From Sialis fuliginosa (lineage: Eukaryota > Arthropoda > Insecta > Megaloptera > Sialidae): a stretch of 64,000 nucleotides of DNA. The notes under the pieces were generated by a model. The model made no database searches. It was not told the origin of the DNA and worked only from the letters and a program-made list of their open reading frames with translations. The DNA lies in contig OY540820.1 of assembly GCA_961205875.1 (NCBI GenBank), forward strand, positions 5,146,001 through 5,210,000, read 5' to 3'. Below, piece after piece: positions 2,666 through 48,671 of this stretch (its first letter is position 1; every line of letters begins with the position of its first letter). A program made the translations under genes and the position numbers.

Positions 2666-3665
2666 GTTTAATATGTAAATAATGAATATCATCAATAATA
2701 AAATATACACTAAACTAAATAGGTGGTGTAAAAAACCAATTTCACATCTTACAGTCCATGTATTTAAATGCATTTGTGTGCGTATAAATTCTCATCAATT
2801 ATTTTCAATTCAATTTTTTCCCCGTTTACAAGTTCTTGGCGTATCCCAACCCGCTACCTAAATTGAATTGCTCTGACTGAAGAAGAATCTAAATTGCAAT
2901 ATGTAAAGCACTGTGCAGTTAAGTTCTTTTCAAAACATAAATCAAATCTAAGGCAATATGCATATTGTTGAAAGCATTCTAGTAAACAGTTTTGTATATT
3001 GGATTTTTTTAACATGTTTGTAGTTGAGTAATATGCATTGTAATTTTAGTGACGACCAAAATCTTGTTAGCGTATTTACCATGTTTTAGTAGTTAGATTA
3101 ATGTTAATATTTGACTATGGATGTATTTTTTGCAGTACCATGGATGTATATTTTTTATGTACTTAAAAATATATGGTGGTTCGGCGATACGAATATTTTG
3201 AAGGAAGGTAAAATGAGTCATTTGGAAGTGATTTAAGCAAATATACCTATATACAAAGTGCGACAGTTTTTTTTATATCGGCCATTTTAGTAAATTTTTG
3301 AAAAAACCCAGATTAATACATGTTAATCGCAAAAGTTCAGAAGTTAAAAAACCTTTATTTTTAAACATGATTTTTATATTACTTAAATGTTTATGCTACA
3401 CTATCAGATCAAAATAAAATTTATGAATAACAAAAACAAAAAATGGCTGCAGTTTAACATTTAAAAACTTATAAAACTGTGATAAAATTATTTCTTTAAA
3501 AAATTATTTTATAAAATCTAGTACACTTACAGATGTTCAGATGGTTTTAAAAATATTTGATACCCTTTCGAAAAACCTACCATAATACCTACATGAATTG
3601 GCTATTTTTGTTAAAAACACTTACATTTATCCCAGATTAAGTAAGATTTCTACATTTACAAATTA
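2666..3665. other. Unique AT-rich DNA, nothing recognised
   Basis: No repeat relationship to the rest of the window and no coding signal seen. Confidence 0.4.
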
Positions 3666-3821
3666 ACTTTGAACATTTTTTTAAAAGCCAACAAAAACAT
3701 CCTGGTATTGCAAAAAAAAGAAAAAAAGAAGAAAAAAAAGGAAAAAATAAATAAAAGTTCAATGTTTTTCTTTTTGCCATACCAGGATGTTTTTGTTGGC
3801 TTTTAAAAAAATGTTCAAGGT
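3666..3821. repeat. Short inverted repeat (hairpin)
   Basis: Arms of about 50 bp at 3666-3715 and 3772-3821 share AAAAGCCAACAAAAACATCC in inverted orientation. They enclose a purine-rich A/G loop of about 56 bp. Arms are nearly perfect. No target duplication was identified. Confidence 0.75.
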
Positions 3822-4547
3822 CTATTTTTTCAATTTAAACATTTTATTTGACTTGTGTGAATTTCAAAATGTCAATTTTCAAACGTCATTATTCCGAAAA
3901 CCATTGATTTTAGAGATATGATATGCGTACAAAAAGTGTTCAAAATTTATCGCACAATTCAAAAATGGTATAATATATAGGGTGTTCTATTTAAAAAAAT
4001 CAATGATGACTGAATATGTTCTTCTTGAAACAACCTTTATACAATTTTCTTATGTCAAAAAAGCCGCAATTAAAAATACTAATCGACGGGTTCGAGCGTT
4101 CTTGCACAAAATAATTACCTGAATTTTAAACGAATTTGTTCTTTTCATCGTATACATTTCACTGTATACATTGTACAGATAAAAAATTTATAACAAAAGT
4201 GAAAAAAAAATTTTTATTTTAACATAAAATATAATCCATCGTTGGAAAGTTTTGATTCGTTGAACGAATTTTCTTAAGATCATATTAACCATAAATTTCT
4301 CCTTTGATAAAGGTTATTAATTAGTTAACAATCAACCTGATTGTGGAAATTCTAAATACATGTCCCTAACAATAACTTATCTATCTCGAGTTTTTGGCAG
4401 TCTTCTCGTTCATAAACTTTGTCAAAACTTTCTCAAGAAATATCCCTTAAAATTGATTTTAATTGTGTATTACATAACTACATAATTTACAATGTATTTA
4501 TCAAATGCGTTGCTATATTTAAAAACCTAACACAAACTTTATACAGT
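3822..4547. other. AT-rich DNA without recognised genes
   Basis: Contains a single ATATAGGGTGTTCTATTT word at about 3976 resembling ATACAGGGTG-type foldback ends. Nothing else was supported. Confidence 0.35.
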
Positions 4548-4585: not shown

Positions 4586-4961
4586 GGAATTATTGTTTAG
4601 GATTTAAAAAACATCTGCCAAGTAAATGCATAGTGCTTCCTCGTGCTAAATTCACCTAAGGTAGTTAATTATTCAACAACTTAAATAAAAACCGATAGTG
4701 TTTAGATAAATTGCCTGTAATTAGTTAACCATTTAATTTTTATACAATTTTACTAAAAATGATTACTTCGAAATTTATCTTAAAACGCACCTGATTATTT
4801 TTTCGTATATTTTTAATTTTTTGACAATTTCAATCTAAATCTAAATTTATGCAAACGGCAAAATGACATTTAAAACGTCAAAATGACATTTAAAACGCCA
4901 AAATGTCATTTAATATGTCCAAACAAATATCAATTTAGAAAAACAAAACACGAATTTTTAA

Positions 4962-5152
4962 CTTAAACTAAAAATATACACCTTAACCACAATAAAACAA
5001 TGTCACTCGACACGTCTGGAACTGTGAGGCTCCTGATGAGGACTTCTTGTGAAGTCGAAACACGTGTCGAGTGACATTATTTATTGTGGTTAAGGTGTAT
5101 ATTTTTAGTTTAAGTGACTAGAAACCACAGTTTCTCCATTTTTCCAGTAGTA
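4962..5152 (+). mobile_element. Hairpin retroposon-like unit inserted in C1 (foldback 2)
   Basis: The unit is bounded by a 12-bp direct repeat, ACGAATTTTTAA, at 4950-4961 and 5153-5164, and other C copies lack it. It is therefore a clean insertion with a long target duplication, as target-primed reverse transcription makes. Its body is an inverted repeat (about 4962-5015 against 5062-5117) around a hammerhead-like core. No protein is encoded. A non-autonomous derivative of a Penelope-like or other ribozyme-bearing retroelement is the preferred reading. Confidence 0.65.
5002..5075 (+). ncRNA. Hammerhead-ribozyme-like motif
   Basis: In order: a 14-nt strand GTCACTCGACACGT with C at 5016; a 16-nt segment; CTGATGAG at 5033-5040; a perfect 6-bp stem GACTTC-TTGT-GAAGTC; GAAAC at 5057-5061; and the strand ACGTGTCGAGTGAC. 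CUGANGA, stem II and GAAA match the hammerhead consensus, and the long outer helix would be stem III with a GUC cleavage site, the type III layout. Weak points: segment 5017-5032 makes a poor stem I, and the fully paired outer helix leaves C5061 unpaired, whereas the canonical A15.1-U16.1 register would need a 2-nt bulge. It may be degenerate or inactive. Confidence 0.5.
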
Positions 5153-5462
5153 ACGAATTTTTAAAATAAATTGAGATTAATCTTTGTAAGGGAATATTTT
5201 ACAACAAACGTTGTAGACCCATATTATAGGAAATTTAATGTTCTACAAAAAATATTCTATAAAATTTTCACGTAACATGTGTCGTTCTTGAGATATCTTG
5301 AAAAAATAAATATTTTGGGATGTCCCCTCACCCCTTACACACGATTTTGATGATTTTGAAATGGGACCGTCCTTAACTCAGACCCAACCATCCGATCAAG
5401 TTTCAACAATAACGGTTCAGTGGTTCATCAGTTGTGCGTATGACAAGGATTCAGGGAACAGA

Positions 5463-6991: not shown

Positions 6992-7068
6992 AATATAAAA
7001 TTATTTATCGACTCTAGACTCTACAGTACTCTAGATTCTATGCAGAAGATATGCAATTTAAAAAAAAA
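6992..7068 (+). repeat. 77-bp direct repeat, left copy, flanking C2
   Basis: Identical over 77 bp to 7865-7941 and abuts the C2 element exactly on both sides. It contains three ACTCTAGA-like words. It is either an unusually long target duplication or a segmental duplication that happened with or after insertion. Confidence 0.85.
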
Positions 7069-7864
7069 CATCTGCCAAGTAAATGCACAGTGCTTCCTCG
7101 TGCTAAATTCACTATAACCGATAGTGTTCAGATAAATTGCCTGACATTGGTTAACCATTTAATTTTTATACAAATTTTACTAAAAAATCTTAGTTCGAAT
7201 TTTTTCTTAAAACGCACCTGAATATTTTTTCATATATTTTTAATTTTTTGACAATTTCAATCTAAATCTAAATTTATGCAAATGTCAAAATGACATTTAA
7301 AACGTCATAGTGACATTTAAAACGCCAAAATGACATTTAAAACGTCAAAATGATATTTAATATATCCAATCAAATATCAATTTAGAAAAACAAAACACGA
7401 ATTTTTAAAATAAATTGAGATAAATCTTTGTAAGGGAATATTTTACAACAAACGTATTAGACCCATATTATAGGAAATTTAATACTCTACAAAAAATATT
7501 CTATAAAATTTTCTCGTAACATGTGTCGTTCTTGAGATATCTTGAAAAAATAAATATTTTGGGGTGTCACCCCTCCCCCTTACACACGATTTTGATGATT
7601 TTGAAATGGGACCGTCCTCAAACCAAACCCAACCATCCGACCAAGTTTCAATAATATCGGTTCAGTGGTTCATGAGTTATGCGTGTGACAAGGATTCAGG
7701 GGACAGACGGACGGACGGACAGACAGACAGACACGGAACGAAAAGTGTTTGTCTTGACGTGAAATGGATAAATCAATTTAAAATTTTGAAATTGGAGACA
7801 TTTTTTTTTGTCTCAATCTGAAACGATCACATAGCTTCTCGTATCTTCGATATTGCGAGGAAGC
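7069..7864 (+). mobile_element. Repeat family C, copy C2 (most complete)
   Basis: This 796-bp copy starts CATCTGCCAAGTAAATGC and ends GCGAGGAAGC, and is nearly colinear with C5. It contains four repeats of a (A)TGACATTTAAAACG unit near 7288-7350, the conserved TTGAGATATCTTGAAA word, and a GACGGACGGACAGACA microsatellite. GCTTCCTCG near the left end recurs inverted at the right end. The 85-codon frame at 7564-7821 is part of the repeat and is not a gene. Confidence 0.8.
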
Positions 7865-44866: not shown

Positions 44867-46851
44867 GAGTCAAGTTTTCTGAAGTGGGAACACTAAAAAT
44901 CAACTTCTTCAACTTAAACTTTTTATTGTAGAACTTTGAAGTTTTATTATCCAAAATTAATGTTCTGAAATATTTTTTGAAAATTTTGATTTTTTAAAAT
45001 GTTAGAAGCAAATGAATTTTTATATAGGTTTTTTTTGAAATTGTGATTTTTCTGTAAATACTGAGTAAAAAATAATGAAATTTTTATGATAGGACTAAAA
45101 ATAATTCACAATTTAGATGAAATAAATTTTTTATTAAAGTTTTCATTTTTTCTTATAAATAATAAATATTTTAATAAACAAATAGAAATTTAACCAACTT
45201 CTCATATAGATAGAAACAAAATTTTTTCACAGTATTGTTCTATAAAATCTACTTAACTTTTTCCTGAAAAAAAATTTTAGTACATTTCATAAACAAAAAA
45301 GTTACGAATGTTTAAGTGCCGTTAGATAGGCGCGCGGCGCGCTGCCGCGCGAGGCATACAAGCGCATTCACGCGCTTGGCTACTCACCTACTCGAACAAA
45401 AGTAATTTTATGGTTGATTATTATAGATTTTGGGACGTAGATTTCGAATAAAATAACCCGGACTGAAGAAAAGTGGTGCCACACCCTTAAAAATGGGGTT
45501 GAAGGGTGAAGACTCCGTTTCCAACCTTTTTTCAATTTATCTCAAAATCTAAATCGATGATGGGTTTTTTTTATAGTTGATATTTGTTAGGGACACACAA
45601 ACAAATTGATTGGGACCACATATACTGAATTTGACCAAAAATTACTCTTTCTAGAGGGTTTAAAAAAAGTAAAAATGCTTCTTTTCGGGGAAAATATTTT
45701 AAAAATTAATAACTTTTGTTAAAATCATCCAAATGACTCGTAATTGGTCTCAAATTGTTCCCGAAGTTCCAAAGAATAATGATCAATCATAATTAAAAAA
45801 TTATATTAATAGCTTAACCAATGAAAATCGCTAATGTTTAAGGGTAAGTAACGTACATTTTTTAAAAACTACCTTTTTACTAAAATTTAAATAAAAATAT
45901 CAGGGTTGAATATAATACGTTTTATTCAAATAATGCATTTCTTCTTTGGAACTTCGGGAATAATTTGAGACTAATTACGAGTCATTTGGATGATTTTAAC
46001 AAAAGTTATTAATTTTTAAAATATTTTCCCCGAAAAGAAGCATTTTTACTTTTTTCAAACCCTCTAGAAAGAGTAATTTTTGGTCAAATTCAGTATATGT
46101 GGTCCCAATCAATTTGTTTGTGTGTCCCTAACAAATATCAACTATAAAAAAAACCCATCATCGATTTAGATTTTGAGATAAATTGAAAAAAGGTTGGAAA
46201 CGGAGTCTTCACCCTTCAACCCCATTTTTAAGGGTGTGGCACCACTTTTCTTCAGTCCGGGTTATTTTATTCGAAATCTACGTCCCAAAATCTATAATAA
46301 TCAACCATAAAATTACTTTTGTTCGAGTAGGTGAGTAGCCAAGCGCGTGAATGCGCTTGTGTGCCTCGCGCGGCAGCGCGCCGCGCGCCTATCTAACGGC
46401 ACTTAAACATTCGTAACTTTTTTGTTTATGAAATGTACTAAAATTTTTTTTCAGGAAAAAGTTAAGTAGATTTTATAGAACAATACTGTGAAAAAATTTT
46501 GTTTCTATCTATATGAGAAGTTGGTTAAATTTCTATTTGTTTATTAAAATATTTATTATTTATAAGAAAAAATGAAAACTTTAATAAAAAATTTATTTCA
46601 TCTAAATTGTGAATTATTTTTAGTCCTATCATAAAAATTTCATTATTTTTTACTAAGTATTTACAGAGAAATCACAATTTCAAAAAAAAACTATATAAAA
46701 ATTCATTTGCTTCTAACTTTTTAAAAAATCAAAATTTTCAAAAAATATTTCAGAACATTAATTTTGGATAATAAAACTTCAAAGTTCTACAATAAAAAGT
46801 TTAAGTTGAAGAAGTTGATTTTTAGTGTTCCCACTTCAGAAAACTTGACTC
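44867..46851. mobile_element. Giant near-perfect palindrome H, 1985 bp
   Basis: Arms 44867-45776 and 45942-46851, about 910 bp each, differ at only a handful of positions that I could see (for example near 45062, 45075 and 45358). They surround a single-copy loop of about 165 bp. Ends read GAGTCAAGTTTTCTGAAGTG. Each arm has a CpG-dense patch (45330-45385 and 46333-46388: GCGCGCGGCGCGC, AAGCGCATTCACGCGCTT). No frame of note on either strand and no clear target duplication. Either a very young foldback transposon or an inverted duplication kept alike by gene conversion. Confidence 0.85.
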
Positions 46852-47695: not shown

Positions 47696-47871
47696 TTTCA
47701 AGTATATTTATGCTTATAAATCATTGTGATGGGCAGTTTTGGCTTTTCTTTCACAAAAGTTTCAGGGTATTTTTACAAACAAATTTTGCGGACACCCCTG
47801 TCCATTGCGTAAACATAATATATGTTCTTTACAGAAAAAACACGTGCCAAAAAGGTCACTTTAAGTAAAAA

Positions 47872-48671
47872 ACATCTGCCAAGTAAATGCACAGTGCTAC
47901 CTCGTGCTAAATTCACTAAAACCGATAGTGTTCAGATAAATTGCCTGGCATTGGTTAACCATTTAATTTTTATACAAATTTTACTAAAAAATCTTAGTTC
48001 GAAATTTTTCTTAAAACGCACCTGAATATTTTTTCATATATTTTTAATTTTTTGACAATTTCAATCTAAATCTAAATTTATGCAAATATCAAAATGACAT
48101 TTAAAACGTCAAAGTGACATTTAAAACGCCAAAATGACATTTAAAACGTCAAAATGACATTTAATATATCCTATCAAATATCAATTGAGAAAAACAAAAC
48201 ACGAATTTTTAAAATAAATTGAGATAAATCTTTGTAAGGGAATATTTTACAACAAACGTAATAGACCCATATTATAGGAAATTTAATGCTCTACAAAAAA
48301 TATTCTATAAAATTTTCTCGTAACATGTGTCGTTCTTGAGATATCTTGAAAAAGGAATATTTTGGAGTGTCACCCCTCCCCCTTACACACGATTTTGATG
48401 ATTTTGAAATGTGACCGTCCTCAAACCAAACCCAACCATCCGACCAAGATTCAATAATATCGGTTCAGTGATTCATGAGTTATGCGTGTGACAAGGATTC
48501 AGGGGACGGACGGACGGACACACGGACAGACAGACAGACACGGAACGAAAAGTGTTTGTCTTGACGTGAAACGGATAAATCAATTTAAAATTTTGAAATT
48601 GGAGAACTTTTTTTTTGTCTCAATCTGAAACGATCACATAGCTTCTCGTATCTTCGATATTGCGAGGAAGC
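47872..48671 (+). mobile_element. Repeat family C, copy C5 (full length)
   Basis: An 800-bp copy colinear with C2 from ACATCTGCCAAGTAAATGC to GCGAGGAAGC. Unlike C2, its flanks show no long direct repeat. The GACGGACG/GACA tract has a different unit count. Confidence 0.8.

Follow-up and report, generated by a model that had tools for sequence, protein, structure and literature searches.

A palindromic insert with a putative hammerhead ribozyme in Sialis fuliginosa, best read as the leader of a Penelope-like element

The window, the whole 64-kb stretch of DNA analysed here, carries a 191-bp hairpin insertion at positions 4962-5152. The insertion is bounded by a 12-bp target-site duplication, with ACGAATTTTTAA at 4950-4961 on the left and its perfect repeat at 5153-5164 on the right (no strand assigned to either). 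The antisense arm (4962-5013, minus strand) is the reverse complement of the leader of a Penelope-like element (PLE), running inward from about +102, where the tail starts, and lacking the tail, and the sense arm (5014-5152, plus strand) is the same leader from +2 through the whole tail, numbered so that the A of TCAGTCTGG in longer copies is +1. The tail (5115-5152, plus strand) contains the stem-loop AGAAAC-CACA-GUUUCU at 5120-5135, and both of its edges coincide with two inferred reverse-transcription start points. The outer inverted arms are perfect over 36 nt. When the flanks were joined without the insert, they aligned to 7063-7839 (84%) and 47866-48646 (82%), both of which are insert-free and as such represent empty sites. 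The initial annotation, which described a 191-bp hairpin between perfect 12-bp direct repeats that is missing from sister copies, was thus correct in its coordinates, its repeat and its empty sites. A match to mir-4477 below the Rfam cut-off turned out to be the hairpin itself and was set aside.

Other palindromes occur in the window. A second palindromic insert at 617-868 has arms at 683-745 and 774-836 that are 95% complementary, an 8-bp flanking repeat TCATGGGT at 617-624 and 861-868, extra sequence on the left side only, and CTAAAGA...GACGAAAC. Possibly another PLE family made a two-ended insertion here, oriented the other way round. A large inverted repeat spans 44867-46851, with arms of 913 nt that are 99% complementary and spaced by 159 nt, and an inverted repeat with 63-nt arms lies at 3660-3827, similar sequence also flanking the copy at locus L088.

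The sense arm carries a putative type I hammerhead, and any self-cleavage activity is predicted from its sequence. On the plus strand, the 5' strand of stem I (GCUC, 5029-5032) is followed by the core CUGAUGA (5033-5039), one unpaired G (5040), a 6-bp stem II (GACUUC-UUGU-GAAGUC, 5041-5056), the core GAAA (5057-5060) and helix III (ACACGUGU, 5060-5067), a palindrome that is either loopless or forms 2 bp with an ACGU loop. C17 and the 3' strand of stem I (GAGU) complete the motif at 5068-5072, with predicted cleavage at 5068/5069. The window copy therefore has the type I core CUGANGA/GAAA/NUH with three helices, in a canonical register within the sense arm, and the cut is predicted after C5068 (+56/+57). 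The hammerhead core that the initial annotation had recognised (CTGATGA, a 6-bp stem and GAAA), of the kind known from Penelope-like elements, is indeed present. Its register, with the long helix as helix III and a cut at 5016, was rejected because the canonical type I register needs only the sense arm; what had been taken for helix III is the two inverted copies pairing with each other.

A three-helix hammerhead scanner reported two places in the window, at 5033 (plus strand, score 14) and 40346 (minus strand, score 10), compared with four matches and a best score of 11 in 4 Mb of sequence simulated at the dinucleotide make-up of the window. In the Rfam covariance scan that had been proposed as a check, a Hammerhead_1 match was found in the window (17.7 bits, E 1.1 in 2.5 kb), but it stayed below the gathering cut-off of 34, and a gathering-level scan of the window gave no matches. 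The Hammerhead_1 cut-off was reached in none of the six other copies scanned, all of which share the core (17.7 bits against 34), and five loci of other PLE families had no Rfam hammerhead match. A genome search with RF00163 gave no match, yet its controls were equally silent, so that it is evidence in neither direction.

Stem I had been described as weak, and the outer stem I is weak in the window copy, where it departs from the majority sequence (GTTAGG to GTGAGG; CATTGTTTTATTG to CATTATTTATTG). Elsewhere a pairable stem I, the absence of which from consensus copies had been named as grounds for refuting the ribozyme, is common: among the 67 sense arms that start at +5 or upstream, the inner GCUC/GAGU is found in 55 and the outer GGAAC with GUUUU in 54, and the core and stems are intact in 48. 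The hammerhead anatomy was also observed directly across families. In 28 of 31 PLE loci of other families, many of them near-identical, the scanner score was 13-17, and it was 0 in L057, L058 and L087, which are the family used as query. All 28 scoring loci have one extra nucleotide before stem II and none lacks it. The letters of the helices in these families are GAAUG/CAUUC or GGAAU/AUUCC in stem II and AUGCA/UGCAU or AAGCA/UGCUU in stem I, with UUA as the cut site. Helix III, read by eye, is palindromic across the groups read (ACACGUGU, UAGCUA, AGCGCU) and altered in one copy, L078. Efficient cleavage within a single molecule is doubtful, since RNAfold of the leader favours a rival hairpin over helix III.

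The genome (392 Mb, 20 contigs) was searched for further copies. A first look gave 1,403-1,515 candidates, of which 40 were scored in each search. When 39 copies from 38 loci were compared with the window copy, they followed a single plan with few exceptions: an antisense arm beginning (C)TTAAACTAAAA is separated by a variable centre from a sense arm that closes with the tail TGACTAGAAACCACAGTTTCTCC(G/A)TTTTTCCAGTA. In all, 97 copies were recorded from 96 loci (0.4-3 kb fetched for each) and the window; L013 gave two, and L018 yielded none because its tail is broken. Possible duplicates were counted anyway (L105 and L106, with the same upstream sequence, and L045 and L046, with similar left flanks). 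The arm lengths of the first sample are biased, since it was chosen by likeness to the window copy. To lessen this bias we read all 40 best matches of a tail-anchored query, and rates refer to these 40 unless stated otherwise. All sampled copies come from tail-bearing queries; a tail-free query gave no matches, probably because its words were too common.

An inverted arm with its outer end at +99 to +112 was found in 70 of the 97 copies, and 11 more inverted matches end short of +99. These 70 two-armed copies form the full set, which was selected partly by resemblance to the window copy. Across the 97 copies we observed a PLE hallmark, a pLTR-like arm with an inverted partner and an optional tail at one end. 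Minor variants at a diagnostic site suggest subfamilies.

Longer copies join the same leader to a coding end. The coding end QLDAAESLEILRDKTRIF...DKPF* precedes it in L088, L093, L097, L100 and L115, five of the 32 loci fetched with a sense-arm query, and in these parent copies DKPF* is followed by about 30 bases and then by TCAGTCTGG and the leader; shorter pieces of the coding end occur in L090 and L092. The parent frame shares 31% identity across 124 aa (E 3e-15) with a PLE frame of the same genome that is PF01541-positive, while its own Pfam GIY-YIG score is sub-threshold (E 0.0045). RVT_1 was found in the family of that PF01541-positive frame, and an RT-like piece of the parent was recognised by eye only, in L120. 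The parent frame has many relatives in the genome, one of which is 89% identical and sits in an 854-codon open frame. A GIY-YIG profile search of the genome gave two matches, and further PLE families were found through the L048 frame. The parent was identified through the longer leader copies; the 31 PLE loci L057-L087 gave no convincing DNA match to the leader. Since a GIY-YIG-like coding end adjoins the leader in these longer copies, PLE leader is the best reading of the insert from sequence; the idea of a separate minimal retroposon is not borne out, since the longer copies present the sequence as part of a PLE.

Right-arm outer ends lie at +136 to +141 in the 97 copies, counted only if they reach +134, and the left-arm outer start lies at +101 to +106 in 65 of 70 copies, for which +99 to +112 was required, so that both ranges are partly set by the filters. 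The tail was found in none of the 81 inverted matches, apart from a separate neighbour copy in L013. In the tail-anchored 40, right arms start at or upstream of -42 in 7, at -2 to +1 in 9 and at +6 to +69 in 24; 33 stop at or inside the inferred start and 7 run past it. The filter recognised an antisense left arm in 28 of these 40 and missed long left arms in three more (L089, L093, L122). When the inner arm ends of this sample were pooled, 21 of 68 fell in -2 to +4, compared with 4.0 expected for a 7-nt bin if the 59 ends within -2 to 100 were evenly spread. This cluster probably marks the RNA 5' end. The TCAGT at the inferred RNA start resembles the arthropod initiator. Secondary clusters of inner ends at +44 to +47 and +64 to +69 lie beside the rival hairpin and are perhaps RT pause or jump points.

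The ends near the predicted cut at +57 are few, with 1 of 68 in +55 to +59 against 2.9 expected under an even spread in the tail-anchored sample. Across the full set, the same interval holds the ends of 6 of the 70 left arms and of 0 of the 97 right arms. RNA cut by the ribozyme thus does not look like the usual template, although left arms may at times have been copied from it in view of these six.

The target duplication is exactly 12 bp in 34 of the 70 two-armed copies and 12-15 bp in 48, compared with a mean of 4.1 and a maximum of 10 in a shuffled-pair control. The retroposed origin and the target duplication proposed at the outset are supported. In the 27 copies without a recognised left arm, some of which own long left arms missed by the filter (L089, L093, L122), the sense arm is flanked by repeats of 8-12 bp in six (L104, 12 bp; L107 and L118, 11 bp; L140, 9 bp; L096 and L141, 8 bp) and of at most 5 bp in 21. 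The tail-anchored sample has 28 two-armed copies. In 13 of them the left arm extends more than 5 nt beyond the right, in 8 it is the right arm that extends farther, and in 7 the two lie within 5 nt of each other, while in the biased full set of 70 the right arm is longer in 46, the left in 14 and the two are about equal in 10. All 59 copies that could be classified (of 70; 11 could not) have the same variant in both arms at the diagnostic site, 51 the major form and 8 minor forms, compared with a mean of 44.5 and at most 51 agreeing copies when arms were shuffled. This speaks against arms copied from random, independent RNAs. Both arms of a copy would therefore come from one source, either two transcripts of one locus or a self-copy. 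The arms overlap by 1-8 nt at the junction in 36 of the 70 copies, meet bluntly in 12 and are separated by filler in 22; at least two shared bases were present in 45% of 22 eligible copies against 16% in simulation, which is only suggestive.

A head-to-head layout was also found in long copies. One such copy, C5:28208274-28210264, is laid out as in the short inserts, its two arms of about 1 kb meeting and sharing the flank TAGAACTATGT. Where neighbouring matches of the parent-type coding end have opposite orientations, they meet 5' to 5' in 13 of 13 pairs (145 of 152 matches entered; five second matches of C10 copies left out). In arrays of other PLE families (120 matches), 23 of 29 opposite pairs meet 5' to 5' and 6 meet 3' to 3'. 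Long head-to-head PLE arrays, for example at C10:984944-1019606, have open frames of about 896 codons in units of about 3.56 kb, the left-hand units being antisense and the right-hand ones sense. Of the 26 PLE arrays, five lie less than 200 kb from a contig end (C3, C5, C7, C10, C11), a distance picked after inspection of the data, against 1.4% of the 14 counted contigs. Contig C7 starts with (CCTAA)n and the end of C3 is not telomere repeat; a possible enrichment of PLE arrays in subtelomeres is suggested.

Taken all together, we consider it probable that the insert is a two-ended PLE insertion, made from leader RNA only and primed from both ends of a 12-nt staggered break. The PLE protein would make a cut in the target that is staggered by 12 nt. 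Reverse transcription of the PLE RNA would then be primed by one DNA 3' end at about +138 to +140, where the tail has its outer edge, and by the other at the inner edge (about +102). Both cDNAs would extend toward the RNA 5' end, many halting at the initiator-like TCAGT, and the two antiparallel cDNAs would be joined head to head to give the hairpin. Priming from both DNA ends is suggested by the two outer starts about 37 nt apart, the staggered cut and the frequent ending of the cDNAs close to one point, and it fits the anole PLE protein in vitro, for which PMC11167929 reports that both strands are cut and extended from two starts bounding the tail. While the parent copies, arm anatomy and target duplications were observed directly, we infer indirectly that priming took place twice, where the RNA 5' end lies, how the cDNAs were joined and whether the RNA is cleaved. 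Some observations weigh against two-ended insertion: unequal arms could stem from later deletion at the palindrome centre, the right arm is longer in 46 and the left in 14 of the biased 70, where the filter recognised no left arm, flanking repeats are at most 5 bp in 21 of 27 copies, a 3' to 3' meeting is seen for 6 of the 29 opposite pairs in arrays of other PLEs, and the parent frame's Pfam GIY-YIG score is under the cut-off (E 0.0045).

The agreement between arms in 59 of 59 classifiable copies also counts on that side: it implies one source, as expected from snap-back, but likewise from two transcripts of one locus or from gene conversion. In a snap-back, the cDNA would fold on itself, or self-prime on antisense RNA, and copy the inverted arm, the centre being trimmed later. 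Self-priming on an antisense template is the published reading of rotifer palindromic junctions (PMC3846280), and the excess of longer right arms (46 of 70 in the full, biased set) is in its favour, as is the arm agreement. However, in 13 of the 28 tail-anchored two-armed copies the left arm has leader that is missing on the right and the right arm has tail that is missing on the left, so that simple copying of one arm from the other would not give this state unless a deletion followed. Trimming after snap-back could mimic unequal arms, but the constant left-arm outer end at about +102 is not expected from fold-back copying, and we regard this route as rather unlikely.

Another possibility is that the arm, which bears an initiator-like start, a hammerhead and a tail, belongs to a separate non-autonomous, retrozyme-like family with its own start site and internal priming signal, mobilised in trans by the PLE protein. 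The 33 of 40 right arms that stop at or inside the start, against 7 that run past it, are consistent with this, and so are the minor variants that suggest subfamilies. We nevertheless hold such a family to be unlikely: a PLE that has coding copies carries this sequence as its leader, which makes a separate family unnecessary, and head-to-tail tandems of the unit, the hallmark of animal retrozymes, were not found among the matches at the 96 loci or in the window copy. That the insert is a foldback or MITE-type DNA transposon with a ribozyme likeness by chance is highly improbable; the perfect 36-nt outer arms would suit it, but the 37-nt tail is at one end only, arm lengths vary between copies, and the scanner did not exceed 11 in 4 Mb of simulated sequence against 14 in the insert. 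We rejected it on the one-sided tail and the coding PLE relatives.

Within two-ended insertion, the palindromic helix III could be an RNA dimer signal, by which two transcripts of one locus would pair, travel together on a protein dimer and each be reverse transcribed from one end of the same break. This idea is improbable as it stands. If true, it would account for the shared variant of the arms in 59 of 59 classifiable copies, for the two-ended inserts, for a helix III that stays palindromic while its letters change, and for templates that look mostly uncut (1 of 68 ends in +55 to +59). This genome offers a large set of short insertion products with all ends readable, a natural data set, and these products fit two-ended priming with fixed starts and a 12-nt stagger and speak against plain snap-back.

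A literature search on two-strand, target-primed insertion of Penelope listed one paper, PMC11167929, and earlier statements of two-ended insertion are possible. A close layout is that of Pen2a from the rotifer Adineta vaga, for which PMC3846280 describes an inverted pLTR that falls short of the full pLTRs by 37 bp and a tail of 31 bp at one inverted pLTR; an initiator-like TCACT is noted there in a rotifer pLTR. The shorter inverted pLTR, one-sided tail, target duplication, initiator-like site and head-to-head order are all shared with the copies described here (PMC3846280). Unlike Pen2a, most sampled inserts here have no coding part, many of their arms stop close to a single point, the duplication has a sharp length of 12 bp, and there are about 1,400 candidates in one genome.

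The Poseidon PAc protein of Anolis carolinensis, according to PMC11167929, cuts and extends both strands in vitro and starts at two adjacent internal RNA sites that bound the tail, with a hammerhead just upstream; the ribozyme is dispensable for insertion in vitro, with which the uncut-looking templates here agree. Here too a hammerhead lies just upstream of two internal start sites bounding the tail. The RNA printed there has, by our own reading, CUGAGGA, one extra nucleotide, stem II, GAAA and an ACGU palindrome. The PAc evidence is from work in vitro, whereas our record consists of genomic insertions, and in the parent copies read here, unlike in PAc, the leader lies 3' of the stop codon. 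Like metazoan retrozymes as characterised in PMC7229834, the units are small and AT-rich, with a type I hammerhead and target duplications of more than 4 bp, and axolotl retrozymes have a weak helix III with a palindromic tetraloop. Metazoan retrozymes are tandem repeats that give circular RNA, whereas the units here are inverted and have a coding PLE parent. Published work on PLEs already covers inverted pLTRs, tails, hammerheads and two-strand priming, and the insert is probably a further, informative member of this group.
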